A program made the position numbers and the translations under genes. Source: Alloalcanivorax dieselolei B5 (lineage in GTDB: Bacteria; Pseudomonadota; Gammaproteobacteria; Pseudomonadales; Alcanivoracaceae). From it: 64,000 bases of DNA. Where the stretch lies: NCBI RefSeq assembly GCF_000300005.1, contig NC_018691.1, positions 3,100,001-3,164,000 on the forward strand, written 5' to 3'. This document shows positions 33,051 through 47,589 of this stretch, one piece after another. The notes beneath the pieces are model-generated. The model did no database searches, was not told the origin of the DNA, and saw nothing but the letters and a program-made list of their open reading frames with translations. Position 1 is the first letter of the stretch, and the number at the start of each line of letters is the position of its first letter.

Positions 33051-33923
33051 TTACTTAACGAACACCACCGTCTTGTTGCCGTCGACGATGATCCGGTCTT
33101 CCAGATGCCAGCGTACCGCGCGCTGCATCACCTGGCGTTCCACGTCCTGCCCCAGGGCGCGCAGTTCGCTGGCCGAGTGGCGGTGGGAGACGCGCTGTAC
33201 GTTCTGCTCGATGATCGGCCCCTGGTCCAGATCCTCGGTGACATAGTGGCTGGTGGCGCCGATCAGTTTGACGCCACGGTCCCAGGCCTGCTGGTAGGGA
33301 TTGGCGCCGACGAAGGCCGGCAGGAAAGAATGGTGAATATTAATGATGCGATGGGGATGCCGGGCGACGAACTCCGGGCTGAGAATCTGCATGTAACGGG
33401 CCAGCACGATCACGTCCACCTGGCCTTCCAGCAATTCCAGCGCCTGGGCCTCGGCTTCCGCCTTGTTTTCCCGGGTCACCGGAATGTGATGGTAGGGAAT
33501 GTCGAAGCGCTCCACCTCGGCGCGCAGATCGTCATGGTTGCTGATCACCATGGCAATGGTCGCGGACAGATCATCGCGCGAGACCCGCCAGAGCAGATCC
33601 ATGAGCACGTGGTCGTGACGGGACACCAAAATTGCCACGCGCTTCTTCTCGGCGGCATAGCTGATGTGCCACTGCATACCGTACCGCTCCGCCACCCGCT
33701 TGCGGAAATTGTTCTCCAGGGCGTCCCGGGAACAATCCAGATCCGGAGTCTGGAATTCCAGGCGCAGAAAGAAGGTTCCGTCCTGGGTATCGCTGGAGTG
33801 CTGGTCCAGGTCGGTGATATTGGCGCCGTGGTTGTAGAAGAAGGTGGAAACCGCGCTGATGATGCCGGGCTGGTCCGGGCAGGTCACCAGCAGCCGCGCG
33901 GTGGCGGCGTCAGGGGTGCTCAT
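33051..33923 (-). CDS. purU: Formyltetrahydrofolate deformylase
   Basis: PurU hydrolyses 10-formyl-tetrahydrofolate to formate and tetrahydrofolate, balancing one-carbon pools. The 290-residue protein has an N-terminal ACT domain (about 8-85, CPDQPGIISAVSTFFYNHGANI) and a formyltransferase-like catalytic domain with INIHHSFLPAF and the ATSHYVTEDLDQGPII motif carrying the catalytic His and Asp. The ATG at 33923 has GGAGAAACG upstream. The start overlaps the AraC gene's end, so the two may be cotranscribed. Confidence 0.95.
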   Translation of the reverse strand: MSTPDAATARLLVTCPDQPGIISAVSTFFYNHGANITDLDQHSSDTQDGTFFLRLEFQTPDLDCSRDALENNFRKRVAERYGMQWHISYAAEKKRVAILVSRHDHVLMDLLWRVSRDDLSATIAMVISNHDDLRAEVERFDIPYHHIPVTRENKAEAEAQALELLEGQVDVIVLARYMQILSPEFVARHPHRIINIHHSFLPAFVGANPYQQAWDRGVKLIGATSHYVTEDLDQGPIIEQNVQRVSHRHSASELRALGQDVERQVMQRAVRWHLEDRIIVDGNKTVVFVK

Positions 33924-34938
33924 TCGTTTCTCCAAAGTGGGTCCGCCGGTACGCCGACGGGGTCATGTTGGTCCATTTCTTGAACGCCCGGTGAAACGAG
34001 CTGGCTTCACTGAAGCCCATCAACAGGGCAATTTCGTCAATACTGAGTTCCGCTTTGGACAGGTAATACACCGAGGCGTCCTTGCGGATCGAGTCCTTGA
34101 TTTCCTGATAGCTGGTGTTGTCATCCTTGAGACGGCGGCGCAGGGTCTGCGGTGTCATTTGCAAACGCCGGCAGACTTCGCCGAAGTCCGGGAAATGACC
34201 GCCGTAATCCTCGGACAGCAAGCCACGGATACGCGCCGGCAGCCCCACGTTATGCACGTTGCCTTCGAACAGCTGCGCCAGCGACTCGCGCAGAAAATGG
34301 GACAACGACAGCTCATTTCTCACCAGAGGCAGGTCCAGGTAGTGGGCGGGAAACACCACCTGATTGACGCCACTATTGTAATAGGTCGGACAGTTGAACA
34401 TGAAGCGGTGTTCATCGTCCTCCTTGAGCGGCTGGTAATCCAGGTAAACCGCCTGGGGCTCCACCACCTTGCCCACCAGCCAGCTCATGAAGCGCAGGCT
34501 GAGAAACAGCATGGCATCGATGATCACATCACGAAAATCCAGGCGCGGATCGACTTCGGTGACCAGCCGGGCCTGGTCGCCTTCGCGCCGCAGCCAGGTG
34601 CGCATGTTGAGGTCGAACAACTCATAGAAGCGGATCCCCCGGCGCACCGCCGCATCCAGGGTCGGGCAATTGATCACCGCATGGGCCATCATCGAGAAAG
34701 TGCCGGGCTTGGACTTGCGGCCCTGGCCGAAGCCGAGGAACTCATCCTGGGTCTGTTCCATCACCAGCAGCATCAGCCGGATAAAGGTATCCCGCTCGAT
34801 GCGGGTGTCTGGCTGTTCCAGAACATGCCGCTCGATACCGCACTGGTCCAGCAACTCGGGGATGCTCACGCCGCTGCGCGCCGCCCCCTGCAGCACCTTG
34901 ACCACTCGCCGCACATTGATGGTTCTTCGTTGATTCAT
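33910..34938 (-). CDS. AraC-family transcriptional regulator with Arabinose_bd domain
   Basis: A 342-residue regulator with an N-terminal arabinose-binding-type ligand domain (about 1-210) and a C-terminal double helix-turn-helix (about 240-335, LSIDEIALLMGFSEASSFHRAFKKW). Members with this layout (OruR and AlkR-like) control catabolic genes in Pseudomonas and related bacteria. The ATG at 34938 (MNQRRTINV) is the natural N-terminus. It overlaps purU, an unusual pairing, and its targets are not evident nearby. Confidence 0.88.
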   Translation of the reverse strand: MNQRRTINVRRVVKVLQGAARSGVSIPELLDQCGIERHVLEQPDTRIERDTFIRLMLLVMEQTQDEFLGFGQGRKSKPGTFSMMAHAVINCPTLDAAVRRGIRFYELFDLNMRTWLRREGDQARLVTEVDPRLDFRDVIIDAMLFLSLRFMSWLVGKVVEPQAVYLDYQPLKEDDEHRFMFNCPTYYNSGVNQVVFPAHYLDLPLVRNELSLSHFLRESLAQLFEGNVHNVGLPARIRGLLSEDYGGHFPDFGEVCRRLQMTPQTLRRRLKDDNTSYQEIKDSIRKDASVYYLSKAELSIDEIALLMGFSEASSFHRAFKKWTNMTPSAYRRTHFGETNEHP

Positions 34939-35268
34939 CCGCGATCCTGAACATGGGGACGGCGGTTTGCGCCACGACGGGTCAAGCCGCCGGCCCCGAC
35001 TATCCCCGGGAAAGACCCAATGATAAATAAAAGCGCCGCCGATTGGCATGGTGATCCCGCCGATCCTGGGTGTCGTCACCGCTGAAGCCCATGCCTGACG
35101 GGAAAATTCCCAAAGGGAGCGGAAATTGAGTTAATCACGAATTAGGTTATCGAATACCGTTACCAGAGAGAATCGCCCAAAGGCCTCCCCACGGCCGCCG
35201 TCCAGCCACGGCTGGACGAATTGCTCGCCAGCCCCCCCGGAACAGCTGAATGTCGCCCCGCTCCCGCG
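34939..35268. other. Intergenic region with GC hairpin
   Basis: This 330-base gap separates the AraC gene start from the thioesterase stop. I see no gene. A perfect 9-bp inverted repeat (35199-35218, arms CGTCCAGCC/GGCTGGACG) lies 51 bases downstream of the thioesterase stop on its strand and could help end that transcript, though it lacks a T-run. The AraC promoter must lie in the AT-richer part near 34990-35160. Confidence 0.45.
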
Positions 35269-35685
35269 TTACCGCCGCGGCACCACCGCCAGGGTAACGG
35301 TGGCCTTGGCCACCAATTTGTGTTCGCCGTTGTCGTCCTCGGCGAACACTTCCGATTCCGCCACCGTCACCGCCTTGCCGGCTTTCAGTACTTTGGCTTC
35401 ACATACCAGGGCCCGTCCCACTGCCGGGCGCAACAGGTTGACCTTGAACTCGATGGTCAGCGGCATGAAGCCTTCCGCCATCACCGTGGCCGACGCGGCA
35501 CCGGCGGTGTGATCCGCCATGGTGCCCACCACGCCGGCGTGGACATAGCCATTTTGCTGGTGGTGATCCTCGCGAACGGTCAATCTGGAAACCACCTTAC
35601 CGCTTTCCACGCCGACCGCTTCCAGACCGAGCAGCTTGAGAAACGGCGCATTCATCACCCATTTGAAGTCGTCAGTCAGGCTCAC
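35269..35685 (-). CDS. PaaI-type hotdog thioesterase
   Basis: A 138-residue hotdog-fold protein with QNGYVHAGVVGTMADHTAGAAS, the PaaI-family active-site helix with its Asp. It probably hydrolyses an acyl- or aryl-CoA. I set the start at the GTG at 35685, which has GGGAGG seven bases upstream; no good ATG start exists. It stands alone between the AraC gene and the sigma-54 activator operon. The substrate is unknown. Confidence 0.82.
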   Translation of the reverse strand: MSLTDDFKWVMNAPFLKLLGLEAVGVESGKVVSRLTVREDHHQQNGYVHAGVVGTMADHTAGAASATVMAEGFMPLTIEFKVNLLRPAVGRALVCEAKVLKAGKAVTVAESEVFAEDDNGEHKLVAKATVTLAVVPRR

Positions 35686-35795
35686 TGTTGTGCCTCCCGC
35701 CAAAGGAAAGCAGCAGCATTGCCGATTCCCGCGATCATGGCCATTGCCAAAAACGACCTGTGTGGGTGGCATGGATGATCTGATCGGCCTGCCTT

Positions 35796-37391
35796 TCAGT
35801 TCGATGGAGCGTCCTGATCGTCCAGTTTCTGCAAATGATAGCGAAACTGTCTCGGCGTCATCCCCAGAGTGCGCGCGGCACGGCTCTTGTTGCCCGCGGC
35901 CCGTCTCAAGGCGTCTTCCAGCATTGCCCGGTCCTGCTCCCGTACCCGGCGATAGGGGCGTTCCGATACCGCCGCCAACGGTGCCGGTGTCGCGATTGTT
36001 GGCGGAGCGTCGCTGACGGGACTGGATTCCTGAGCCAGGATCCGCTCCACATCGGTGCCCGCCAGGATGTGGTCCTGAGCCATCAGTACCGCGCGGCGAA
36101 GAATGTTCTCCAACTGGCGAATATTGCCGGGCCAGCCATAGCGCTCAAGCTGCTCCATGGCCTCCGCGGACAACACCACATCGCGCTGGTATTCACGGTT
36201 GGTGCGATAGAGGAAGTGCCGGGTCAACAGACGTACGTCGCCGTGCCGCTCACGCAGTGGCGGCAAATGAATCGGCAGCACATTGAGCCGGTAATAAAGA
36301 TCCAATCGGAAGTGCCCCGCTTCCACCGCCCGTTGCAGGTTCTTGTGAGTGGCGGCGATGATACGTACCGATACCGGAATATCGCGGCTGCCACCCACTC
36401 TCTGCACCGCGCGTTTCTCCAATACCCGCAGCAATTTGCTTTGCAAGTCCGGGTTCATGTCACCGATTTCATCGAGAAACAAGGTGCCGCTATCGGCCAG
36501 CTCGATCTTGCCTTTTTTCTGTGTATTGGCGCCGGTGAAGGCGCCTTTTTCGTGACCGAACAATTCCGATTCCAACAGCTGTTCGGGAATGGCGGCGCAG
36601 TTGATCGCCAGGAACGGGCCGTCCTGGCGGGGGCTCTGGTTGTGCAATAACTCGGCGAATCGCTCCTTGCCGGTACCCGACTCACCGGTCAGCAACACCG
36701 TCACATCGGTGGCGGCCACCTTGAGCGCATTGGACAGCGCTTCACGCAGAGGCGCACTTTCGCCAAGAATGCCATGGCCGGGCCGACAATGGCTGAGCGC
36801 GTCCTTCAGTTGCCGGTTCTCATCGCGCAGGCTGGCGGTGCGTTCCTCCAGCAGGGTGTGGCATTTCAGAATCTGAACGATGAATACCGCCACCGTGCGC
36901 AAGGTAGCCAGATCACGATCGAACTTGCGGGGCCGCTGCCGCAGACGATGGGCCGCCAGCACCCCCATGGGCACACCACCGTCCATCAGCGGCACGGCCA
37001 CATAGGAAACGATTTCGTCCGGCAGCGTGCGCCGGCCCACGGCGCGGAACAGGAACAGCGGCTCCTCGTCGATGTCTTGAACCACCGCAATCTGTCCGCT
37101 ATCCATCACCCGGCCAACGATCCCCTCACCAGGCCGATAGCGGCCCCGGGCCCGTTCTTCATTGGTCAGGCCATAAGCATAGCGAATGCTCAATCCGTGA
37201 TCCTGGATTCCCGGCAGCAGAACCCTGGCACGGTTCAAACCGAGCATCTGCGACAGCAGTCGCAGAATGCTGCCGATGGCCAGCTCCGGCGTGTCGGCAC
37301 GGCTGATCAGCTGCGCCGCTTCACGCAGCACGATCAGATCCACATCCTCGCCGCGGCCGGCGTCGCCAACATTCAACCCGGAGCTCAGCAT
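35796..37391 (-). CDS. GAF-AAA-Fis sigma-54-dependent transcriptional activator
   Basis: A 531-residue enhancer-binding protein. A GAF sensor domain covers about residues 20-175, the AAA+ domain has Walker A GESGTGKE (236-243) and an intact GAFTGA loop (283-288) for contacting sigma-54, and a Fis-type helix-turn-helix ends the protein (NKSRAARTLGMTPRQFRYHLQKL). Its architecture is that of NifA. The ATG at 37391 overlaps the permease stop (TGATG), so it is made with the importer. It most likely activates the two sigma-54 promoters found in 40311-40791, including its own operon's. The GAF ligand is unknown. Confidence 0.9.
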   Translation of the reverse strand: MLSSGLNVGDAGRGEDVDLIVLREAAQLISRADTPELAIGSILRLLSQMLGLNRARVLLPGIQDHGLSIRYAYGLTNEERARGRYRPGEGIVGRVMDSGQIAVVQDIDEEPLFLFRAVGRRTLPDEIVSYVAVPLMDGGVPMGVLAAHRLRQRPRKFDRDLATLRTVAVFIVQILKCHTLLEERTASLRDENRQLKDALSHCRPGHGILGESAPLREALSNALKVAATDVTVLLTGESGTGKERFAELLHNQSPRQDGPFLAINCAAIPEQLLESELFGHEKGAFTGANTQKKGKIELADSGTLFLDEIGDMNPDLQSKLLRVLEKRAVQRVGGSRDIPVSVRIIAATHKNLQRAVEAGHFRLDLYYRLNVLPIHLPPLRERHGDVRLLTRHFLYRTNREYQRDVVLSAEAMEQLERYGWPGNIRQLENILRRAVLMAQDHILAGTDVERILAQESSPVSDAPPTIATPAPLAAVSERPYRRVREQDRAMLEDALRRAAGNKSRAARTLGMTPRQFRYHLQKLDDQDAPSN

Positions 37392-38218
37392 CAGCTTTCC
37401 ATGCGCCAATTGAAACGACGCATCAGCAATCCGCAGAGACTGTCCAGGCCATAGCCGATCACGCCGATCACCAGCACCACCGCGGCCAGCGCGGAGTAGT
37501 CGAGAGTGTCGCGGGCATCATTGATGGCATAGCCCAGGCCACTGGTCACGCCGAGATATTCCGCCGGCACCAGCACCACCCAGGCGACGCCCACCGCCAA
37601 TCGGATCCCCGCCATCATATCCATCATCACCGCCGGCAAAATCACCTTGCGCAACATCTGCGCCCCACCGGCGCCAAGATTACGAGCCACCTTCAGCCAA
37701 CCCGGATCGATACGGCGCACGCCGTGGGCGGTGGAAAACAGAATCGGCCACAGCGCCGCCATGGCGATCAGGAACACAATGGCGCCATCCCAACTATCAA
37801 AGATCATCACCGCCAACGGCATCCACGCCAGCGGACTGACCATGCGCAGAAACTGAAACGGCAGATTGGCCATCTGCATGGCGGTGGTGAAATAGCCCAC
37901 CATGATGCCGAGCGGAATCCCCAACAGGCAGCCCCAGAACAAACCCGCGCCAATCCTGTACAGGCTGGCGCCGATGGCATCCCATAACGCGCCTTCTCCC
38001 AACATCTGTTGCAGTGAGGCCAGTGTCGGCCCCGGTGCGAAACCGGCAAAAATAACGGTGTCCGGATTGCCCGTCAGGACCCACCCGCCCAGCCACCAGC
38101 ACAGAAACATGATCGCTATCCCGGCCAGCGGATAGGTCACCGCCTGCAGCCGCCGCCGGGCCACGGCGCTCAGACCGACGGCATTCTGGTTGGGTATCGA
38201 TACGCTCGGGGCCTTCAT
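37391..38218 (-). CDS. ABC importer permease (nitrate/sulfonate/cyanate type)
   Basis: A 275-residue inner-membrane permease of the NrtB/SsuC/CynB type with about six membrane helices. The cytoplasmic coupling loop (the EAA-like region NLGAGGAQMLRKVILPAVMMD) is near residues 185-207. The start overlaps the substrate-binding-protein stop and the stop overlaps the activator gene. Together with the adjacent ATPase and binding protein it forms a complete importer. Cyanate, nitrate, sulfonate or a nitrile-like solute are all possible for the family. Confidence 0.88.
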   Translation of the reverse strand: MKAPSVSIPNQNAVGLSAVARRRLQAVTYPLAGIAIMFLCWWLGGWVLTGNPDTVIFAGFAPGPTLASLQQMLGEGALWDAIGASLYRIGAGLFWGCLLGIPLGIMVGYFTTAMQMANLPFQFLRMVSPLAWMPLAVMIFDSWDGAIVFLIAMAALWPILFSTAHGVRRIDPGWLKVARNLGAGGAQMLRKVILPAVMMDMMAGIRLAVGVAWVVLVPAEYLGVTSGLGYAINDARDTLDYSALAAVVLVIGVIGYGLDSLCGLLMRRFNWRMES

Positions 38219-39477
38219 ACCTTGATTACCTCCTCCCGTTCATAGGAGACGGAACCGGCTTCCAGTCCGACCCGCCATTGCGCGTCCGCCTCCAGCGCCT
38301 TACGGATAAAACGGTCGTCCACCAGATCGCCGGCGACAAAATCCGGGTCCAATTTCTGCAGGAAAGTGGTATCGCCGCTGACCAGCGTCTGCTTCATTTG
38401 ATCGACGATAAAACGGGTGGCGGAGGGATAAGGCCAGCCGTGAAAGTCCACCCGTCCGTTTTCCCATTCCGGATGGCGAATGGCGTCCGGCGACGGATAG
38501 TCCTGATCGGCGTAATAGGTCATTGCCCTTTCCACCACCGGGGCCCGCATCGGCAAATAGCCCTTGCCGTCCTTGGACAGCATGTGCGCCACTTTCTGTT
38601 TATTGGCCTGGGTGTAATTCTGCGCGCGCACCAGCGCGTTTATTACCTTCTGCGTCCACTGCGGCCGCGCCGCCACCTGCTGCTCGTTCATGCACACCAC
38701 ACAACAGGGATGATTCTTCCACATGTCGCCGGTGAAGCGCAGCACCCGCCCGCCGGCGAGCATTTCACCGGCGGCGTTGAACGGCTCGGCCACAATGAAG
38801 GCATCAATTTTTCGCGCCGCGAGAGCCGCCGGCATGTCCGGCGGCGGCATGATCTGCAAATTCACTTCGTTGGCGGCCAACGCTTCGCTCTGCCCTTTGA
38901 TCACCGGCGTCAATCCAGCCTGACGCAGCCCCATCTGAATCACTACGTTGTGCATGGAATACCAGTACGGTACCGCCACCTGCATACCGCCAAGGTCACT
39001 GAATTCCTTGGCCTCGGTATGCCGGCCCACAACCACGGCGGAGCCATTGACGTGGGCCCAGGACATGATTTTCACCGGGAAACCGCTGCTGTATCGCATC
39101 CACACCGGAATCGGCTTCAACAGGTGCACCAGATTGAATTTGCCGCTGGCAAACCCTTCCACCAATGGCGACCAGCCGCGAATCAGCGTCGGCCTTTCAG
39201 TGACGATACCTTCTTCCTCGAAATAACCCTGTGCATGAGCCACCAGCAACAAGGCAGCGTCAACGATCGGCAGGTAACCGATGCGCAGTACTTCGTCCTC
39301 CGCTGCCGCCATCGCCGGACTGGCCAGTCCCATGGCGGAAGCCCCCAACATGCCGGCACCAGTGGCGGCCAGAATGTCGCGCATGAAATCACGGCGGTTC
39401 AGTGCGCCGTCGTGACATTGGCACGTCAACAAAGTGTGATCGTCGTGCTCGCAATAATCGTGATTTGACTGACCCAT
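38215..39477 (-). CDS. NrtA/CmpA-type substrate-binding protein with Tat signal
   Basis: A 420-residue periplasmic binding protein of the nitrate/bicarbonate/cyanate/taurine class. A twin-arginine signal (NRRDFMRDILAATGAG, Arg28-Arg29) ends in an AMA-type cleavage site near residue 57, so it is exported folded. Before the twin Arg, residues 5-22 are unusually rich in Cys and His (Cys9, 19, 21; His6, 11, 14, 22). The mature part has the IGYLPIVDAALLLVAHAQGYF start typical of the family. The ATG at 39477 has GGGGAGAG upstream. It lies between the ATPase and permease genes. Confidence 0.88.
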   Translation of the reverse strand: MGQSNHDYCEHDDHTLLTCQCHDGALNRRDFMRDILAATGAGMLGASAMGLASPAMAAAEDEVLRIGYLPIVDAALLLVAHAQGYFEEEGIVTERPTLIRGWSPLVEGFASGKFNLVHLLKPIPVWMRYSSGFPVKIMSWAHVNGSAVVVGRHTEAKEFSDLGGMQVAVPYWYSMHNVVIQMGLRQAGLTPVIKGQSEALAANEVNLQIMPPPDMPAALAARKIDAFIVAEPFNAAGEMLAGGRVLRFTGDMWKNHPCCVVCMNEQQVAARPQWTQKVINALVRAQNYTQANKQKVAHMLSKDGKGYLPMRAPVVERAMTYYADQDYPSPDAIRHPEWENGRVDFHGWPYPSATRFIVDQMKQTLVSGDTTFLQKLDPDFVAGDLVDDRFIRKALEADAQWRVGLEAGSVSYEREEVIKV

Positions 39478-39503
39478 GAAACACTCTCCCCAATTCGAAG
39501 ACA

Positions 39504-40310
39504 TCATCCGCCAACGCGGCGCAGCGCCACCCGGTCCCGGGAAGGCTTGCCCATCGGCGTTACGTTTTCGGAACGTTCGAACTGCTCCATCAAAACCCGT
39601 CGCCGCGCCTGAAAGTCGACACCGGCGGTATCCCGTGGCCAATCCAGCGCCACCTCAAACTCATGTTCGATACGGCCCGGATTACGATTCATGATCATCA
39701 CCCGGTCGGCCATCAGGATTGCTTCATCGATATCGTGAGTAACGGTAACCAGGGTGATGCCGAAGTCACGGCAAATGGCGGCGACTTCCTTCTGCAGACT
39801 GGCTCGGGTAAAGGCATCAAGGGCCGAGAACGGTTCGTCCAGCAACAACACTTCCGGATTAGTGGCCAGGGAACGGGCCAGCGCCACCCGCTGTTGCTGG
39901 CCACCGGAAAGGCTCCGCACGTTGGCGTCGCTGTACTCCGACAAGCCGACCAATGTGAGCAGTTCATCGACCCGACCGCGGATCTCCGCCTTCGGCCGCC
40001 CGGCGAACTCCAATCCCAGGCCGGCGTTCTGACGCACATTCATCCACGGATACAACGAAGGCTTCTGGAACATCATGTTCCACTTGGCCATTGGCCGGAC
40101 CACCTGGTGGCCGTTGATCTTGACGCACCCCTCGGAAGGCTGCAGCAAACCGGCGATCAGATGCAGCAAGGTGGATTTGCCACAGCCGCTGCGGCCGATC
40201 AGAACCACGCATTCGCCGCTGTCGATGCGGTTTTCGATGTTCTGCAAAACCGGATCCGCGCCGGCTTTGTAGTGGTGGGTAATACCATTGATGCTGATCG
40301 TCGCGCCCAT
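39504..40310 (-). CDS. ABC importer ATPase (NrtD/SsuB/TauB type)
   Basis: A 268-residue nucleotide-binding protein with Walker A GRSGCGKST (39-47), the LSGGQQQR signature (134-141) and Walker B (VLLLDEPFSALD). It is the first gene of the leftward operon, with a candidate sigma-54 promoter 50 bases upstream of its ATG and GGGAGAAG as ribosome binding site. It energises the importer encoded by the next two genes. Confidence 0.93.
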   Translation of the reverse strand: MGATISINGITHHYKAGADPVLQNIENRIDSGECVVLIGRSGCGKSTLLHLIAGLLQPSEGCVKINGHQVVRPMAKWNMMFQKPSLYPWMNVRQNAGLGLEFAGRPKAEIRGRVDELLTLVGLSEYSDANVRSLSGGQQQRVALARSLATNPEVLLLDEPFSALDAFTRASLQKEVAAICRDFGITLVTVTHDIDEAILMADRVMIMNRNPGRIEHEFEVALDWPRDTAGVDFQARRRVLMEQFERSENVTPMGKPSRDRVALRRVGG

Positions 40311-40359
40311 CCGTTACTTCTCCCGTTTGCACAAAGCCATCGGCTGTCTCCCTGACAAG

Positions 40360-40375
40360 AGCAGAAAGCATGCCA
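40360..40375 (-). promoter_or_regulatory. Candidate sigma-54 promoter of the importer/activator operon
   Basis: On the minus strand this reads TGGCATGCTTTCTGCT, which fits the -24/-12 consensus TGGCACG-N4-TTGCW with the invariant GG-N10-GC spacing. The predicted transcription start is near 40349, about 40 bases before the ATPase ATG. The activator gene is in the operon it would control, which points to autoregulation. Confidence 0.7.
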
Positions 40376-40542
40376 AGCGGACCAAAGTTCGCTGACGGTT
40401 TGGGAAAACGATCGGAGGAAGGACGGAAAACAACGATTTATCAAGGTATTAGCTTCGCGGCGACGGCATTGTTTCAGGCACCCGGCCCCTATGAAAGAAG
40501 GCGAAACGTGATCGACGACGACATGGAAACGCAACAAAAACG

Positions 40543-40572
40543 AACATTGTTCCACTTTGTCCGACATTGTCC
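40543..40572. promoter_or_regulatory. Candidate enhancer: three phased 10-bp repeats
   Basis: Three tandem 10-mers, AACATTGTTC, CACTTTGTCC and GACATTGTCC, repeat with exact 10-bp phase, so all face the same side of the helix; the first sits in a perfect 11-bp palindrome (GAACATTGTTC, 40542-40552). They lie about 125 bases upstream of the rightward -24 element and about 170 bases upstream of the leftward one, typical enhancer distances. A related CATTGTTTC is at 40467. I infer binding by the encoded Fis-type activator. Confidence 0.55.
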
Positions 40573-40695
40573 GGCCCGATCTTTTGCCGACGGCGCCATC
40601 CGCTCCCGTGTCGACCGCCTGACATGCCCATCCGTTTTATTTACTTGTCTGTTTTTAAAGTCTTTTTTCTCAACCTTGCCGGCTTTTAGCAATCC

Positions 40696-40711
40696 TGGCA
40701 CAGCCTTTGCC
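40696..40711 (+). promoter_or_regulatory. Candidate sigma-54 promoter of the osmC-cynS operon
   Basis: The sequence TGGCACAGCCTTTGCC matches TGGCACG-N4-TTGCW in all but two positions and has the exact GG-N10-GC spacing. The expected transcription start is near 40722, about 70 bases before the OsmC start codon. Confidence 0.78.
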
Positions 40712-40791
40712 ATACCCCATCGGGAAGCGCGGACGGGCCCAGGGCCTGAACCGCTGCGTCCAACCTGTCAAAACCAGCAAGGAGTCTTGTC

Positions 40792-41343
40792 TTGAGCACT
40801 CAAACCAGCGTCGAAACCGTTTCCGCTTATCTGCGCCCGATCGACCGCGACGGCCTGCTTGGCTTTGCGGAAAAAGGCCGCGCCAACCCGCAGGCACGCG
40901 GCACCAACAAGGTCCACACCGTCTGTGAAGGCCAATACCGTACCCTCAGTTATGTCGGCGATCATGAACCGGTAGTGGTGGACGAACCCCCGCACTTGTT
41001 CGGCCAGGACACCGCGCCCGCCCCCGGCGAAATCGTGTTGTCGGCGCTCGGCGGCTGTCTGGCCGTGGGCATCACCGCCGTTGCCACCTGGAAGCAGGTG
41101 AAGCTGTCCCGTCTGGAATTGTTCCTGGAAGGTGATATTGGCAACAGCGCCGCCTGGGGCGCCGGCGGCGCCCAGCGTATTCCTTCGCAAATGGGATTCC
41201 AGGAAGTACGGGTGAAAGTGCGGGTGGAAGGCGACGCCAGCCGCGAGGAACTGGATCAGATCGTGCAGCACGCCAACTACTTTTCGCCGGTGGCCAACAC
41301 CATCCGCAACCCGATCAACTTTTCCATCAGCCTTGCCGACTGA
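40792..41343 (+). CDS. OsmC-family protein
   Basis: A 183-residue OsmC/Ohr-fold protein. It starts with TTG at 40792, chosen because AAGGAG (40779-40784) stands seven bases upstream. The reactive Cys of the central helix is present (LSALGGCLAVG, Cys89), but the second, C-terminal Cys of classical peroxide reductases is replaced by Ser (YFSPVANT), so a two-Cys hydroperoxidase mechanism is unlikely. It is the first gene of the rightward sigma-54 operon. A thiol or electrophile-handling role is possible, but not shown. Confidence 0.85.
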   Translation: MSTQTSVETVSAYLRPIDRDGLLGFAEKGRANPQARGTNKVHTVCEGQYRTLSYVGDHEPVVVDEPPHLFGQDTAPAPGEIVLSALGGCLAVGITAVATWKQVKLSRLELFLEGDIGNSAAWGAGGAQRIPSQMGFQEVRVKVRVEGDASREELDQIVQHANYFSPVANTIRNPINFSISLAD

Positions 41344-41382
41344 CAACGGCGGCGCCCTCCGGCGCCGTCCACGGAGACCGCT

Positions 41383-42516
41383 ATGAACAGCGCCTTGCAA
41401 CGAGCCACCGATGACATCGCGCCGGTGGACATGGAACGCGTGCGCGCCATCGCCGAGGGGCCATTGGCGGCGTTGGCCAACCGCATCGATCACGACGGCT
41501 ACTATCCCCTGGAGGTACTCGCCGATCTCGGTGAGGCCGGCGCCCTCGCCGCCCATCTGGAAAGCCACGGTCAACGCTTTGATCTGGCTGTCGATGCCAT
41601 GCGCGAGGTCAGTCGCCATTGCGGCACCACCGGCTTTCTGATCTGGGCCCACCAGGTGTGTGGACTGTATATGGAGCAGTCCGGCAATCCTCACCTGCAA
41701 GGCACGCCGCTGCAGGCCCACCGCAGTGGCCAGACTTTCGGTGGCACCGCCCTGTCCAATCCGATGAAAGCGTTATCCGGCATCGAACGCATGGCGCTCA
41801 TCGCCAAAGCCGACGGCCACGGCGGCTATCGGGTATCCGGTTCCCTGCCGTGGGTCAGTCACATCGGGCCGGGCCAGTATTGCGGTGCCCTGGCATCAAT
41901 CCGCGACGATAAGGACCAGCCCGCCGGCGAACTGATGTTCCTGCTGCATTGCAACGACCACGTCACCCTGCGGCCGTGCCCCACGTTCTCGGGGATGGAA
42001 GGCAGCTCCACCTGGGGACTGCGTCTGGACCAGTATCCGGTGACCGCGGAACAGATCATCGCCGAACCGGCCGCGCCTTTCGTTTCACGTATTCGGGGCG
42101 CTTTCATTCTGTTGCAGATCGGCATGGCCCTGGGTGTGGCGGAAGGCGCATTGGACAGCATGCAGGAAGTGGAAAGCCAACTGGGCCACGTCAATCAGTT
42201 TCTGCATGACCGTCCCGAAGCGCTGCGGCGCGAGTTCGACGACATGGGCCGGCGACTGGCGGGCCTCACCGGCACGCCTTACGCCACCGATCGCGACTAT
42301 CTGCTGGACCTGCTGGACCTGCGCGCGCAAGGCGCGGAATTCGCTCTGCGCGCGGCGCAGTCCGCCATGTTGCACCAGGGTGCCCGGGGTTATGTGATGA
42401 GCGCCGCCGCCCAACGGCGGCTGCGCGAAGCGCAGTTCGTCGCCATCGTCACCCCGGCGATCAAGCATTTGCGCTGGGAAATGGATCGGCTTTCCCGGGA
42501 GGAGTGGCCGCAATGA
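41383..42516 (+). CDS. Acyl-CoA dehydrogenase-like flavoprotein (possible FMN/FAD monooxygenase)
   Basis: A 377-residue protein with the acyl-CoA dehydrogenase fold: an N-terminal helical part, a middle beta domain ([22 protein letters not shown]) and a C-terminal helical bundle. In this superfamily, SfnB- and DszC-like members are flavin-dependent oxygenases acting on sulfur or nitrogen compounds rather than acyl-CoA. The context (rubredoxin-reductase and cyanase, no beta-oxidation genes) favours that reading, but it is inference. It overlaps the next gene's start (ATGA). Confidence 0.75.
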
Positions 42517-43838
42517 CAACCCGTCCCTGGAAGCAATACATCTGTCTGGCCTGCGGTCTGATTTACGATGAGGAGAAAGGCGATCCGGATGGTGGCCTGC
42601 CGCCGGGTACCCGCTTCGAGGACATCCCGGAGGATTGGGAGTGCCCGTTATGCGGCGTCGGCAAGGCGGATTTCGAACCGTATGAGCCACCACCACATTC
42701 GGTGGTGGAAACCCCGGCCACGGCCCATCACCAGAACGATGAAGAACCCGTGGTGATCGTCGGCGCCGGCATCGCTGGCTGGAGTGTGGCGCAAGCGCTG
42801 CGTGGCCTGGACCCGGCGTTGCCGATTGCCCTGGTCACCGCCTGCGATGGCCACCGTTATCACAAGCCTGAATTATCGGTGGCGCTGAGCCGCGACGCCG
42901 GCCCCGAGGATCTGGTGCAACAAACCGGAACGGATGCCGCGCGGCGACTCGGTGTGCGGCTGTTATCACAAACCTACGCGGTGGGATTATCCACCGACAG
43001 CCGTCAACTGCGTACCACACGCGGCACGCTGCGTTATCGTGCCCTGATTCTGGCCCACGGCGCCCACCCGCTGTTGCCGCCGGCGTTGCCGCCGGAGCTG
43101 TGCTGGCGGGTCAATCACCTGGACGGCTTCAGAGGCCTGCGCCGCGCTTTGGCCGACGGCCCGCGACGGGTGGCGGTGGTCGGGGCCGGCATGATCGGCT
43201 GCGAGCTGGCCGAGGATTTGAGCGCCAGCGGCCACCGGGTCACCTTGATCGATCGCCAGTCCACGCCACTGGAGGCGCTGCTGCCGGAACCGGCCCGTCA
43301 ACGCCTGCGCCGGCACCTGGAAGCACTGGGCGTCACCTTCCTGGGTACCACTGAGATCACCGCTATCAACGCCATGGGTCAAAGCAAGCACATCACCACC
43401 AACCGCCATGGCCTTATTGAAGTGGATCAGGTGGTGGTGGCCACCGGCCTGGTCACCAATGGCCGGCTGGCACGGCAGGCCGGGCTGGCATTCGAAAACG
43501 GCATCGTGGTGAATCCCCGCACCCTGGCCACCAGTGCCGATCATGTCTACGCCCTCGGTGACTGCATCAGTCTGAGCGGCACACCCTGCCGCTTTATCGA
43601 ACCCATCGCCCACCAGGCCCGGGGGATCGCTCATGCCATCACCGGCAGTAGCGGAGGTGACTATCAACATCGGGACCCGGTGATCCGTCTGAAAACCCGA
43701 CGTCTGCCGATCGTGCTGCGCGGTTGTGGCGACGTCGCTCTACCCTGGCGGACCCTGGTGGATGAACCGGATTACCTGCATCTGGAACAACGGCGCGGCG
43801 ACCAGGTGATCGCCAGTCTCAGTGTCGGGCACCGCTAA
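42513..43838 (+). CDS. Rubredoxin-rubredoxin reductase fusion protein
   Basis: A 441-residue fusion. Residues 1-55 are a rubredoxin with its four Fe ligands in two CxxC pairs (Cys11/14 and Cys44/47). The rest is an FAD/NAD(P)H oxidoreductase with [16 protein letters not shown] (about 83-98) and [17 protein letters not shown] (about 225-241). In most bacteria these are separate proteins; here electrons can pass from NAD(P)H to rubredoxin within one chain, probably to the upstream flavoprotein. The ATG at 42513 follows GGGAGGAG. Confidence 0.9.
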
Positions 43839-43887
43839 TCGCCTTTCGTTTCACATTAATTATTTTCCATTGATTCAGGAGTGACCC

Positions 43888-44331
43888 ATGATTGAACAAC
43901 GCAACGAAATCCCCCACCTGATCCTCGCCGCCAAAGTGCGTAAAGGGCTGAGCTGGAGCACCATCGCCGACGCCCTCGGCCAAAGTAAGGAATGGGCCAC
44001 CGCCGCCTGCCTCGGCCAGATGGCACTGGACGCGAACCAGGCCAGAACCGTGGCGGAACTGTTCGAACTGCCCGAGGACGCCGCCGCCTGGCTGCGGACC
44101 GTTCCGCACAAAGCCGCCGATAACCTGGCCAGCGACCCTCTGGTTTACCGCCTCTATGAGGTCATTCATGTCTACGGCGGCGCCATGAAGGAACTGATCC
44201 ATGAGGAATTCGGCGACGGCATCATGAGCGCCATCGATTTCGACATGGACATCCAGCGTCAGGACGATCCCAAGGGCGACCGCGTCCGCATCGTCATGAC
44301 CGGTAAATTCCTGCCCTACAAACGTTACTGA
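43888..44331 (+). CDS. cynS: Cyanate hydratase (cyanase)
   Basis: Cyanase converts cyanate and bicarbonate to ammonia and CO2 in the cytoplasm. The 147-residue protein has an N-terminal helix-turn-helix-like part and a C-terminal catalytic domain with the three conserved residues Arg88, Glu91 and Ser114 (E. coli Arg96, Glu99, Ser122), in YRLYEVIHVYGG and GIMSAIDF. CAGGAGTG precedes the ATG. It is the last gene of the sigma-54 operon, and its product suggests that the pathway, or the imported compound, yields cyanate. Confidence 0.95.
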   Translation: MIEQRNEIPHLILAAKVRKGLSWSTIADALGQSKEWATAACLGQMALDANQARTVAELFELPEDAAAWLRTVPHKAADNLASDPLVYRLYEVIHVYGGAMKELIHEEFGDGIMSAIDFDMDIQRQDDPKGDRVRIVMTGKFLPYKRY

Positions 44332-44453: not shown

Positions 44454-44490
44454 GGCTCTCCTCTCACAGGGAGGGGAGAGCCATTTTTTT
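44454..44490 (+). terminator. Intrinsic terminator between the Fur promoter and the TonB receptor gene
   Basis: A 12-bp stem with one mismatch (GGCTCTCCTCTC/GAGGGGAGAGCC, loop ACAGG) is followed by A and seven T residues (44484-44490). It is a textbook rho-independent terminator, but it lies downstream of the Fur-type promoter and upstream of the receptor gene. It may end read-through from cynS, act as an attenuator in the receptor leader, or end a short transcript of about 65 nt. Confidence 0.7.
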
Positions 44491-44578
44491 ATGGCAGCCG
44501 CCCCACGGGCCGTCACCGAGGTGACGTTAAAAAACACGCCCGGTTCGCAGGCTTGTCATGTTTTCGAGAGGTTTGCCC

Positions 44579-46618
44579 GTGTTGTCATCACTTCGATTCC
44601 CTATGGGGGCGCTTCCCCGCGCCGTTCTGGCCGGCACCGCCACCCTTGTCGCCCATCACGCCCTCGCCGAGGAACAAAGCCCCCATGTGCTGGAAGCCGT
44701 GACGGTGGTGTCCGCCGCCGGCTTCGAGCAGCACATCGCCGACGCCCCGGCCTCGATCTCGGTGATCGACCGGGAGCAATTGGAAACCAAGAGTTACACC
44801 GATGTCACCGATGCCTTGAAGGACATCCCCGGTGTCACCGTCACCGGCGGCGGTTCTCGGCAGGACATCAGCCTGCGCGGTATGTCGCCGAAGTACACCA
44901 TGATTCTTGTGGACGGCCGCCGGCTGTCCGGCCGCGAGGCTACCGCCAACGGCAATGACAGTGGTCTGGAGCAGAACTATCTGCCGCCGTTGCGCGCCAT
45001 CGAACGCATCGAGGTGATTCGCGGGCCGATGTCCTCCCTCTATGGTTCCGAGGCCATGGGCGGGGTGATCAATATCATTACCCGAAAAGTACCGGAACAC
45101 TGGCTCGGTTCCTTCGGCGCGGAGGCCACCCTGCAGGACAATGCCAAGTCCGGTAATGCCCGTCAGTCCGATCTGTATCTCGCCGGCCCGTTACTGAAGG
45201 ACAAACTTGGCCTGCAGGTGAACGGCCAGGTTCGTCACCGTGACGAAGATGAAATCCTGGAAGGTTTCGAGGAACAGAAAGTGCGCGGCGGTGGCGCCAA
45301 GCTGGTATTCACTCCGGATCAAAGCAACGAGATCGGACTGTCCTATCAGGAAACCCGCCAGGAGCGTAACGGCTCACCGGGTAAGTACTACGAAGAAGGT
45401 TCGGAGCCCTCCAATCGTCGTTTCGACAAAGAGGTGGCGGCGCTCACTCACAACGGCAACTTCGGTAACTGGAGCACCGACGCCTACATCCAGAATGAAA
45501 AAACCGAGAACCCGGATCGGGTCGGTGAATTGCGTAACGGCATCACTCTGGAAACCCTGACCGCCAACACCCAGGCCACTTATTTTGCCGATCGGCACAT
45601 TATTACCGCCGGGGCGCAATACAAGGATGAGGACCTCACCGACTACGCCACCAACCGTCTGCCCACCAGCAGTACCACCGAGATCAGCCGCTGGCAGTAC
45701 GCGGTGTTTCTCGAGGACGAATGGCGTCTGACCAATGATCTGTCGCTGACCGGCGGACTGCGCTTCAACCAGGACGAAAATTTCGGCGATCACGTGTCAC
45801 CACGGCTGTACGCGGTGTACCACCTGAATCCGGCATTGACCTTGAAAGGCGGTGTCTCCACCGGTTACCGGCAGCCTTCCCTGCGCGAAGCGGCGGATGA
45901 CTGGGGCAGCATCACCGGCGGCGGCGGCTACCCGGCCGGCCATCCGCGCGCCATCATCAAGGGCAACCCGGACCTGGATCCGGAAACCAGCATCAACTAT
46001 GAGATGGGTCTGGCGCTGGATCTGCCGTCCGGTTTCGCCACCAGCGTGATGCTGTTCCAGACCGACTTCAAGGACAAGATCACCGAATACCGCGAGTGCG
46101 ATAACGGCGGCGACCGTAACGATCCCAGCACCTGGAGTTGCGATTACGAAGGCCAGACCTATATGTTCGTCAGCGACCGCATCAACGTGGACGAAGCACA
46201 AATGCAGGGCGTGGAAGCAACGCTGGCCTGGCACCTGACGGCCACCGTGCTGCTGAACGCCAGCTACACCTTCACCGATTCCGAGCAGAAAACCGGCGAA
46301 TTCAAAGGTGAGCCGCTGAATAAAATTCCGCGCCATATGATCAACGCCGGTGTCGACTGGCAAACCACCGATCGCCTGCAAAGCTGGGTACGGGTCAATC
46401 ACCGCAGCCGCACTTCGGACTATCAGTCCCGCACCAGCATGGCTGACGGCACTCCCGGGTATTCCATGGTCGATCTGGGCCTGAACTACCGGGCCAGCGA
46501 ACACCTCACACTGAAAGCCGGCGTTTACAACGTGGGGGATCGCCGCGTCACCGACGCCGATTATGAAATGGTATTGGACGGCCGCCGCTACACCGCCGGC
46601 CTGGTGGTGGATTTCTGA
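44579..46618 (+). CDS. TonB-dependent siderophore receptor (FepA-like)
   Basis: A 679-residue outer-membrane receptor with a signal peptide ending near ALA/EEQS, a plug domain (about 25-160, including VTVVSAAGFEQHIADAPASISVIDREQL and IRGPMSSLYGSEAMGGVINIITRK) and a 22-strand barrel ending in aromatic VVDF. I set the start at the GTG at 44579, which has GAGAGG seven bases upstream; the ATG at 44558 has no ribosome binding site. The plug resembles catecholate receptors. It is cotranscribed with a Tat-exported esterase, which suggests ferric-trilactone use. Confidence 0.9.
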   Translation: MLSSLRFPMGALPRAVLAGTATLVAHHALAEEQSPHVLEAVTVVSAAGFEQHIADAPASISVIDREQLETKSYTDVTDALKDIPGVTVTGGGSRQDISLRGMSPKYTMILVDGRRLSGREATANGNDSGLEQNYLPPLRAIERIEVIRGPMSSLYGSEAMGGVINIITRKVPEHWLGSFGAEATLQDNAKSGNARQSDLYLAGPLLKDKLGLQVNGQVRHRDEDEILEGFEEQKVRGGGAKLVFTPDQSNEIGLSYQETRQERNGSPGKYYEEGSEPSNRRFDKEVAALTHNGNFGNWSTDAYIQNEKTENPDRVGELRNGITLETLTANTQATYFADRHIITAGAQYKDEDLTDYATNRLPTSSTTEISRWQYAVFLEDEWRLTNDLSLTGGLRFNQDENFGDHVSPRLYAVYHLNPALTLKGGVSTGYRQPSLREAADDWGSITGGGGYPAGHPRAIIKGNPDLDPETSINYEMGLALDLPSGFATSVMLFQTDFKDKITEYRECDNGGDRNDPSTWSCDYEGQTYMFVSDRINVDEAQMQGVEATLAWHLTATVLLNASYTFTDSEQKTGEFKGEPLNKIPRHMINAGVDWQTTDRLQSWVRVNHRSRTSDYQSRTSMADGTPGYSMVDLGLNYRASEHLTLKAGVYNVGDRRVTDADYEMVLDGRRYTAGLVVDF

Positions 46619-47589
46619 TGGTTGCCGACCAGCAACGACGGCGTTTTCTGCAAGCGGCTCTGGCCGGAGCCTGCGTCGCTACCCTGCCCGGCGCCGTGCT
46701 GGCGCGCCCGGATATGACGCGCACCATGGGCACCACGCTGGCGGATACCGGCCTTGCCGGCTATCGCTTCGAAAGCCGCACCTTCGCCGGAGCCGAAGGC
46801 CGGCGTCGGCACCGGGTGTGGCTGGCGATCCCCGAAGGCACGCCGCCGCCAGCCGGCTTCCCGGCGCTGTATCTGCTTGATGGTAATGCGGTGCTGAGCC
46901 GGCTGCGACCCGAGTGGCTGACAACGCTTGGCACAGACACGCCACCGGTACTGGTGATGATCGGTTACGACACCGCTCTGCTGTTCGATGGCGATGCCCG
47001 TCACTACGACTACACGCCGGCGTCCGCAGGGAAAACGCCCGCACCGGACCCGCGCCACCCGCAACGGCAGGGCGGTGGTGGCGCCGCTTTCCTACAGCGG
47101 ATCGAATCCGGGATCACCCCCTGGGTAATGGACACCGCGCCGGTAAACCCCGACCGCAAAGCGTTGTGGGGCCACTCCTTTGGCGGCCTGTTCACACTGT
47201 TCGCGCTGTGCACCCGGCCTGATGCCTTCCGCACTTATCTGCCGGTGAGTCCTTCATTGGGATGGGCGGATAACGTGTTGCGACATTATCTGAAGGGGCT
47301 GGCCTCGCGACCGCCACAACACACCCGGCAAGTATGGTTGTGCCGTGGCAGCGAGGAGGTGCGCGCGACGCCGGACATGACTCCGGAACAGGTGACGCGG
47401 CGGAAGACCCGAGCCACCAGGCACTTCATCCGCTTCGCCGCCGACCTGAACCGGATTCCACGAACACAGGTGCGCCATCGTGTCTATCCGGGCCAGGGTC
47501 ACGGCCCCATGTTCAGCACCGCCCTGCCGGAGGCGCTGCGTCTGGCCGCCGGGCTGGCGCCGGATCAGGATTGGTCCTCAACCGGATGA
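46618..47589 (+). CDS. Tat-exported IroE/BesA-type siderophore esterase
   Basis: A 323-residue alpha/beta hydrolase with a twin-arginine-type signal (RRRFLQAALAGA, residues 7-18), so it is periplasmic. The nucleophile elbow GHSFGG places the catalytic Ser at residue 187, and the catalytic His is probably in GQGHGPMF near residue 297. Enzymes of this type hydrolyse trilactone siderophores in the periplasm and are linked to TonB receptors. The ATG shares one base with the receptor stop (TGATG). Its 3' end overlaps the convergent moaE by 25 bases. Confidence 0.82.
   Translation: MVADQQRRRFLQAALAGACVATLPGAVLARPDMTRTMGTTLADTGLAGYRFESRTFAGAEGRRRHRVWLAIPEGTPPPAGFPALYLLDGNAVLSRLRPEWLTTLGTDTPPVLVMIGYDTALLFDGDARHYDYTPASAGKTPAPDPRHPQRQGGGGAAFLQRIESGITPWVMDTAPVNPDRKALWGHSFGGLFTLFALCTRPDAFRTYLPVSPSLGWADNVLRHYLKGLASRPPQHTRQVWLCRGSEEVRATPDMTPEQVTRRKTRATRHFIRFAADLNRIPRTQVRHRVYPGQGHGPMFSTALPEALRLAAGLAPDQDWSSTG

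Follow-up and report, generated by a model that had tools for sequence, protein, structure and literature searches.

What does a locus do in which a single regulatory region separates the genes of a small-molecule importer from a set of redox genes ending in a cyanase? The case that raises this question lies at 35796-44331 of a 64,000-nucleotide stretch of Alloalcanivorax dieselolei B5 (contig NC_018691.1, positions 3,100,001 to 3,164,000; this whole stretch is called the window below), in a genome that consists of a single contig of 4,928,223 bases. Eight genes form two divergent operons around a gap at ~40311-40791: leftward an ATP-binding cassette (ABC) importer and a GAF-AAA-Fis activator, rightward an OsmC-family protein, a flavoprotein with the fold of acyl-CoA dehydrogenases (ACAD), a rubredoxin fused to a rubredoxin reductase, and cyanase (Table 1). 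A first-pass annotation, made from the letters alone, had described these eight genes, their order and their divergent arrangement, all of which our annotation of the window bore out; the substrate it had called unpredictable. On this last point we come to a different view. The sulfur genes found in relatives make thiocyanate the best substrate candidate, because the disposal of cyanate, the disposal of sulfane sulfur and an anion-type importer occur together. We propose that the locus is a sigma-54-controlled catabolic unit for thiocyanate as a source of nitrogen and perhaps of sulfur, i.e. a flavin-based, cytoplasmic counterpart of the 'cyanate pathway', and we put the probability of this reading slightly above one half (about 0.52).

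Is the gene set a unit that is kept together in other genomes? A scan of named genomes for relatives of the flavoprotein yielded at least 523 stretches encoding one, the best 80 of which were kept as named loci. A neighbour was counted if it scored 60 bits or more and lay no farther than 10.5 kb from the flavoprotein. Many of these contigs are short; full flanks are present on 43. All three core genes, i.e. those for OsmC, the ACAD-fold protein and the rubredoxin reductase, occur at 79 of the 80 named loci (OsmC 79, rubredoxin reductase 80), accompanied by the activator at 60, any importer at 55 and cyanase at 47. At the 43 full-flank loci, both partners of the flavoprotein are present throughout (43 and 43), with an importer at 39, the activator at 37 and cyanase at 35. 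OsmC, ACAD-fold protein and rubredoxin reductase are a real module, which occurs in Alloalcanivorax, Marinobacter, Halomonas, Stutzerimonas, Burkholderiales, Methylobacterium and acetic acid bacteria.

Since the 80 named loci, as top matches of a single family, are not independent of each other, we drew two even samples. The gammaproteobacterial sample (369 genomes, flavoprotein cut-off E<=1e-50) contains the flavoprotein in 13 and cyanase in 51 genomes. With the window genome excluded, cyanase was present in 12 of 12 flavoprotein genomes versus 38 of 356 others (Fisher p 1.1e-11); ten of these 12 pairs lie within ~10.5 kb on one contig, the other two on different contigs. In the phylum sample (398 genomes), cyanase was found in 11 of 14 flavoprotein genomes, five of which belong to one genus, versus 58 of 383 others (p 5e-7); one flavoprotein-positive genome (G163) is common to both samples. 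On the strength of these statistics we reject chance neighbourhood of the genes. Whether the rightward genes occur independently of importer and cyanase, a doubt that the first-pass annotation had raised itself, can thus be answered: mostly they do not. Of the seven gene families whose co-occurrence it had wanted checked, the core stays together, whereas importer type and cyanase vary; 13 of the 80 named loci lack an importer, the activator and cyanase within reach (ten on short contigs, three with full flanks).

The association with cyanase also bears on the possibility that the core acts on a nitrogen-free sulfur compound, e.g. a sulfonate or a thiosulfate-like molecule, and that cyanase is linked to it for the supply of CO2/bicarbonate or nitrogen. 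Versions of the locus in Rhodobacterales, in Methylocystis and on a Synechococcus plasmid have no cyanase nearby, and the substrate-binding protein (SBP) of the window resembles the SsuA family, albeit under the cut-off. However, cyanase is strongly associated with the flavoprotein in both even samples, and the Synechococcus elongatus control genome does have a cyanase. We give this possibility a very small chance.

Which chemistry would the proteins of the module allow? The AlphaFold2 (AF2) model of the flavoprotein has a mean pLDDT of 89.9, and Foldseek confirms the ACAD fold with E ~1e-14 to butyryl-CoA dehydrogenase, the listed matches sharing only 16-22% identity. In an alignment with enzymes of the short-chain acyl-CoA dehydrogenase (SCAD) type, the position in their Y-E-G-T segment that we take to hold the catalytic glutamate is occupied by Thr357 in 54 of 54 rows. 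Thr-Pro is kept in 11 of the 12 distinct distant relatives listed and is Ser-Pro in the remaining one. Because Thr357 stands in place of the catalytic Glu, we did not file the flavoprotein as an acyl-CoA dehydrogenase; we reject an enzyme of beta-oxidation, and the earlier label 'acyl-CoA-dehydrogenase-like' is right about the fold and about nothing further.

The OsmC protein shows a comparable departure from its family. Cys89 is present in 106 of 107 rows, with one gap, and the site of the second cysteine of what we assume to be the two-cysteine pair of characterised members is Ser165 in 107 of 107 rows. We therefore reject a two-cysteine OsmC/Ohr peroxidase. The four cysteines of the rubredoxin are found in 96 of 97 rows (one gap), and the fusion gene, which encodes a PF00301 and a PF07992 domain, overlaps the gene of the ACAD-fold protein. 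Cyanase reaches 161.4 bits with TIGR00673 (cut-off 113.3), and its motif Arg88, Glu91 and Ser114, presumably the catalytic residues, is invariant in 69 of 69 rows.

Could the locus then be a plain cyanate-assimilation cluster of the type cynF-cynABD-cynS that carries a redox passenger, with OsmC and the ACAD-fold and rubredoxin reductase proteins handling peroxide or repair? The OsmC and AhpD families are indeed linked to peroxide, and cynABDS clusters occur in cyanobacteria. The cyn cluster of Pseudomonas pseudoalcaligenes comprises a Fis-type CynF, CynABD and CynS (PMC8567248; statements with a PMC number draw on excerpts of the papers concerned). The cluster of P. pseudoalcaligenes/oleovorans CECT5344 has in common with our locus a Fis-type activator, an NrtA/CynA-type ABC importer and cyanase, genes that adjoin the module in many relatives. 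However, OsmC, an ACAD-fold flavoprotein and a rubredoxin reductase are not named in the excerpted cyn-cluster literature, and the CynABD-type importer beside cyanase is not found in the window, where the SBP comes from a different family. Moreover, the three core genes stay linked where importer type or cyanase changes, OsmC lacks one of the two cysteines in all 107 rows, locus L115 has a CynABD-cyanase unit plus a second importer beside OsmC and the ACAD-fold protein, and sulfur genes recur near the module. A mere passenger is therefore highly unlikely in our view.

The type of importer has been less constant than the core. The first-pass annotation had proposed a complete importer of the NrtA/CmpA type; an ABC importer it is, and the type does not stand, as the SBP is only a distant relative of NrtA and CmpA/CmpC and stays under the NCBIfam cut-offs of the transport families. 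Homologues of this SBP (374-564 bits) lie beside distant flavoproteins on plasmids of two Rhodobacterales, a Methylocystis and a Synechococcus. At the named loci, CynA/NrtA-type importers are nearby in 44 of 80 and the type of the window in 11 of 80 cases. A short stretch rich in Cys and His (e.g. C-x2-C) precedes the twin-arginine-like signal in the SBPs of the window and of loci L015, L017, L019, L115 and L155; it was not seen in the Marinobacter/Amphritea types compared.

Other small S-C-N substrates, such as an organic thiocyanate, an isothiocyanate, thiourea or a thiocarbamate, would release cyanate together with sulfane sulfur or sulfite and fit the logic of the genes equally well. Indeed, since two importer families are in use, substrates could differ by clade. 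The importers, however, resemble those of the anions nitrate, bicarbonate and cyanate, and no gene for the handling of a carbon skeleton is widely recurrent outside the Alcaligenaceae-type bins, the top clusters judged by eye being short-chain dehydrogenase/reductase (SDR)-like (6 loci) and aldehyde dehydrogenase-like (4 loci). We consider a substrate of this kind unlikely.

Evidence for the fate of the sulfur comes from the neighbours of the module. Unsupervised clustering of the remaining neighbour genes brought up clusters of sulfur genes, the largest of all being a metallo-beta-lactamase-fold protein at 25 loci. One representative of this cluster was searched, and both the model and the structure-bank match make it a persulfide dioxygenase: it matches 4ysk/4ysl, which we take to be SdoA, with E 9e-100, and it aligns to the Blh model over its second half with 338 bits, under the whole-model cut-off. 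Two further clusters, at 9 and 4 loci, are TauE/SafE permeases (one representative each searched), and a tandem rhodanese, first found on a Rhodobacterales plasmid, recurs near the module. At the 80 named loci, we counted the persulfide dioxygenase 23 times, rhodanese 18 times and TauE/SafE 15 times, with any of the three at 39; the respective numbers for the 43 full-flank loci are 16, 9 and 11, with at least one of the three at 23. Genes for this dioxygenase are rare: a search of 75 even-sampled gammaproteobacterial genomes gave only 23 homologues at E<=1e-15, of which 8 reach E<=1e-70. Its presence in 16 of 43 stretches of ~21 kb is therefore far above chance, according to a rough estimate for the dioxygenase alone.

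Parts of this combination of genes are also met in more distant versions. Five genomes of genus g387, outside the class, show OsmC, ACAD-fold protein and rhodanese followed by CynABD and cyanase. Two Rhodobacterales plasmids and the Methylocystis plasmid combine the importer type of the window with OsmC and the ACAD-fold protein, and both Rhodobacterales plasmids have rhodanese too. An 89 kb plasmid of Synechococcus elongatus carries cysK, a gamma-glutamyltransferase gene, a distant ACAD homologue and a homologous importer in one stretch; it shares the sulfur metabolism cluster of pANL (PMC9239245), whose srpI is named for sulfur regulation (PMC8049743). In the window genome itself, a dioxygenase homologue lies ~2 Mb from the locus and ~3 kb from a second cyanase (G000:C1:1183088-1186616, L129), in a region that adjoins a SulP sulfate permease gene and a gene whose product combines BLH_phosphatase with pyridine-nucleotide oxidoreductase domains.

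The linkage of cyanase and rhodanese would suit the oxygenation of cyanide as well: the flavoprotein would be the long-sought cyanide monooxygenase (HCN + O2 + NADH -> cyanate), cyanase would finish the reaction and rhodanese would act as a parallel cyanide detoxifier. This leaves the importer unexplained, HCN being able to cross membranes, and it explains neither the persulfide dioxygenase and TauE/SafE near the module nor the location in a sulfur region of a cyanobacterial plasmid; we judge it quite unlikely. A cyanide monooxygenase that makes cyanate has been proposed, not shown experimentally (PMC11049912), and if the substrate were cyanide after all, this old question would be answered.

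How would a thiocyanate pathway proceed? The conversion of SCN- to OCN- and zero-valent sulfur is a two-electron oxidation, and gene linkage supports the view that it may take place here. The ABC importer would take up SCN-. NAD(P)H would supply electrons to rubredoxin reductase, from which rubredoxin would carry them to the flavin of the ACAD-fold protein, and with O2 this protein would oxidise SCN- at the sulfur by flavin monooxygenase chemistry. The lone cysteine of OsmC would then capture the activated sulfur as Cys-S-SCN, the hydrolysis of which would yield cyanate and a Cys-persulfide. Rhodanese and persulfide dioxygenase, encoded near the module in many relatives (and, for the dioxygenase, by a homologue elsewhere in the window genome), would turn the persulfide into sulfite, TauE/SafE may export the sulfite, and cyanase would convert cyanate to ammonia and CO2. 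The sequences show the gene content, the linkage, the conservation of the promoter elements and the loss of the dehydrogenase Glu and of the second OsmC cysteine; we infer the substrate, the cofactors in action, the use of O2, the sulfur-acceptor role of OsmC and the order of the steps. The first-pass scheme of import, oxidation by the flavoprotein and disposal of cyanate is retained here as to the conserved unit, an importer, the electron chain and cyanase; the exact importer of the window as an essential part is not.

We speculate further that the flavoprotein could represent a new enzyme class, a rubredoxin-fed thiocyanate monooxygenase of the ACAD fold with a single-cysteine OsmC as obligate sulfur acceptor. 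The ACAD fold without catalytic Glu, the dedicated electron chain and the single cysteine of OsmC speak for the thiocyanate pathway as such; the new class we offer tentatively, as possible rather than probable. An enzyme of this class would be the missing cyanate-forming step in heterotrophs that use thiocyanate as a nitrogen or sulfur source; several heterotrophs are said to use it for nitrogen (PMC5328954). ACAD-fold and OsmC proteins would have an unusual job in the thiocyanate pathway, and the module would be a testable candidate and a genetic marker for the use of thiocyanate in seawater, soil and mine waste.

How does this proposal relate to known systems? Thiocyanate dehydrogenase (TcDH) of Thioalkalivibrio, whose overall conversion of SCN- to OCN- and sulfur is the one that we propose for the module, is a copper enzyme. 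It is the one enzyme that the excerpts name for the cyanate route, is tied to chemolithotrophic sulfur oxidisers, and its locus, too, carries genes for an ABC transporter and for a Fis-type regulator of sigma-54 (PMC5328954, PMC5744179). The excerpts place TcDH in the periplasm and link it with copper genes and flavocytochrome c, whereas our module consists of a flavoprotein, presumed to be cytoplasmic, rubredoxin and OsmC. Thiocyanate hydrolase of the carbonyl sulfide (COS) pathway likewise concerns thiocyanate as a nitrogen source and coexists with the module in Methylorubrum thiocyanatum; however, it is an enzyme of the nitrile hydratase (NHase) type that gives COS and NH3 and no cyanate (PMC5328954). 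The NHase-alpha family PF02979 had no match in the window genome (none of 14 control genomes matched either; two other genomes matched), and the genomes of the Stutzerimonas/Halomonas loci L037 and L093 likewise gave none. As far as sequence can tell, the window falls outside both the cyn cluster, for want of a CynABD-type importer, and the thiocyanate hydrolase system, for want of an NHase-type match.

The fold of the flavoprotein is shared with ACAD-fold enzymes that act off beta-oxidation, namely XiaF, 3-HSA hydroxylase and 3-sulfinopropionyl-CoA desulfinase. XiaF, which is an oxygenase, and 3-HSA hydroxylase match the flavoprotein profile weakly; the desulfinase, an enzyme with a sulfur substrate, came up among the Foldseek matches of the flavoprotein. 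To our knowledge, none of the three is encoded with a rubredoxin reductase and a single-cysteine OsmC. Persulfide dioxygenase of the Blh/SdoA type with rhodanese, whose sulfane-sulfur genes stand near the module in relatives, would serve downstream and not in the primary attack. We file the locus as a candidate for thiocyanate breakdown by the cyanate route with a different enzyme set than the known ones. The earlier statement that no described pathway has this exact gene set is matched by our search of titles and abstract openings in the open-licence PMC literature, in which no paper describing it was found, a result that does not prove absence from print.

Several observations weigh against a thiocyanate pathway of this design. 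In a quickly built, long-branched tree there are several switches of importer type (for the CynA label 16 changes, at least 8 of them forced), and the unit therefore has no fixed importer. Cyanase is a poor marker of the pathway. Three of the 14 flavoprotein genomes in the phylum sample (G513, G591, G739) have none. Their flavoproteins are among the more divergent ones, with 39-41% identity; three others at 38-40% do have cyanase. Rubredoxin reductase is missing or weak (<75 bits) in the divergent versions, namely those on Rhodobacterales, Methylocystis and Synechococcus plasmids and in genus g387. None of the three sulfur genes turned up beside the locus of the window, and all three are absent from 20 of the 43 full-flank loci as well. 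At three loci (L013, a Moraxella plasmid, 7145-7696; L153, 10899-11438; L156, 9087-9632) a gene of the carboxymuconolactone decarboxylase (CMD)/AhpD family replaces osmC, which would also suit a role in peroxide defence. Furthermore, 11 of the 13 loci without importer, activator or cyanase (L024, L025, L033, L034, L036, L041, L042, L046, L047, L053, L054) come from metagenome bins of a single group, most of them under the title Alcaligenaceae or beta proteobacterium. In these bins the core is kept beside an Ldh_2-family gene, with a Cupin_2-family gene at 9 loci; the substrate may therefore differ there. The bins of L033, L041 and L046 retain a perfect sigma-54 site.

Finally, M. thiocyanatum DSM 11490 (L064) encodes the module and thiocyanate hydrolase (TIGR03887 above the cut-off); at L158 (M. 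thiocyanatum G799, 873-2522) the hydrolase gamma gene lies beside an apparent beta-alpha fusion gene (2dd4 chains B and A in order). M. thiocyanatum is listed as positive and M. populi BJ001 as negative for both cyanate and thiocyanate (PMC4135167 Table 1, carbon sources), the type strains of the two species sharing 97.8% average nucleotide identity (PMC8561711), and the title of the species description of M. thiocyanatum speaks of nitrogen, not carbon, sources. Because thiocyanate hydrolase is also encoded, one cannot attribute the growth of this species on thiocyanate to the module, and we dropped the phenotype as evidence.

Three side observations concern these divergent loci. The exchange of osmC for a CMD/AhpD gene looks as if two unrelated thiol proteins filled one role. 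The flavoprotein of L041, from a bin titled Bordetella parapertussis, groups with the Alcaligenaceae-type bins, and the title may be a misnaming. L018 (a Neisseria gonorrhoeae record) and L156 have a distant flavoprotein homologue whose adjoining match to the rubredoxin reductase query reaches only ~70 bits, and in L018 this match is a short frame resembling a stand-alone rubredoxin; no importer or cyanase match was seen in the stretches read at these two loci.

Is the unit controlled by sigma-54? The features expected of a sigma-54-dependent operon all appear to be present, i.e. -24/-12 matches, a distal repeat and an AAA activator with the GAFTGA motif. The rightward match, TGGCAC-N5-TTGC, ends at a distance of ~80 bases from osmC on its upstream side; the leftward match, ~50 bases before the ATPase gene, is weaker. 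Such matches are not in excess within the window, where 18 were found versus 21 expected, and since their number alone is not unusual, we examined their conservation. A site 5' of osmC reaches p<=0.05 against 100 dinucleotide shuffles in 70 of 98 loci (upstream regions that include the window and a few near-duplicate genomes), with most sites between about -70 and -125 relative to the nominal start. In 12 of the 28 failing regions, rhodanese is the next listed gene upstream of osmC, and the promoter may therefore be farther up; L039, L044 and L070 pass despite this layout. The putative activator-binding word ACATTGT/ACAATGT occurs in 55 of 74 regions versus 2.1 expected from mononucleotide shuffles, counted in the 200 bases before sigma-54 sites with a score of at least 5. 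Before the ATPase gene, a sigma-54-like site with 6 or more of the 8 scored positions was found at 17 of 25 loci with the importer type of the window, window included. The eight loci without it are L039, L115, L120 and five outside the class (L014, L015, L016, L154, L155), and in the scanned stretches of these five no activator was seen nearby. Conservation thus supports both predicted elements, in agreement with the first-pass description of a divergent sigma-54 locus.

Table 1. Genes and candidate regulatory elements of the locus, in window coordinates.
Feature	Position	Strand	Remarks
GAF-AAA(sigma-54)-Fis one-component activator (GAF, AAA, HTH_8; GAFTGA)	35796..37409	-	TTG start as listed
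ABC importer permease, BPD_transp_1	37391..38218	-	SaoP/NtrB/TauC-like, under equivalog cut-offs
Substrate-binding protein (SBP), NMT1_2, Tat-type signal	~38215..39477	-	listed open reading frame begins earlier, at 39642
ABC importer ATPase	39504..40310	-	
Sigma-54-type -24/-12 element, leftward operon, TGGCATGCTTTCTGCT	40360..40375	-	2 mismatches
Putative activator-binding repeat, two ACATTGT, 20 bp apart	40542..40573	.	between the promoters
Sigma-54-type -24/-12 element, rightward operon, TGGCACAGCCTTTGCC	40696..40711	+	1 mismatch
Single-cysteine OsmC-family protein	40792..41343	+	Cys89 kept, Ser165 for the other Cys
ACAD-fold flavoprotein, proposed thiocyanate-oxidising enzyme	41383..42516	+	Thr357 replaces the dehydrogenase catalytic Glu
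Fusion of a four-Cys rubredoxin with a rubredoxin-reductase-like flavoprotein, proposed to supply electrons	~42504..43838	+	PF00301, PF07992
Cyanase (CynS)	43888..44331	+	above both NCBIfam cyanase cut-offs
Terminator-like hairpin 3' of cyanase, 12 pairs then T run	44454..44482	+	consensus scan only

The permease and activator genes overlap as listed. Straight after the locus, at 44558-47589, a TonB-dependent receptor gene is followed by a PF00756 esterase-family gene, perhaps a pair for siderophore uptake. On the other side, a hotdog thioesterase gene (35269-35772) lies immediately downstream of the activator gene, and one cluster of genes that resemble it is represented near the module in L019, L020 and L022. 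At 33910-35079 stands an AraC-type regulator with an Arabinose_bd domain, GliR/QhpR-like under the model cut-offs.

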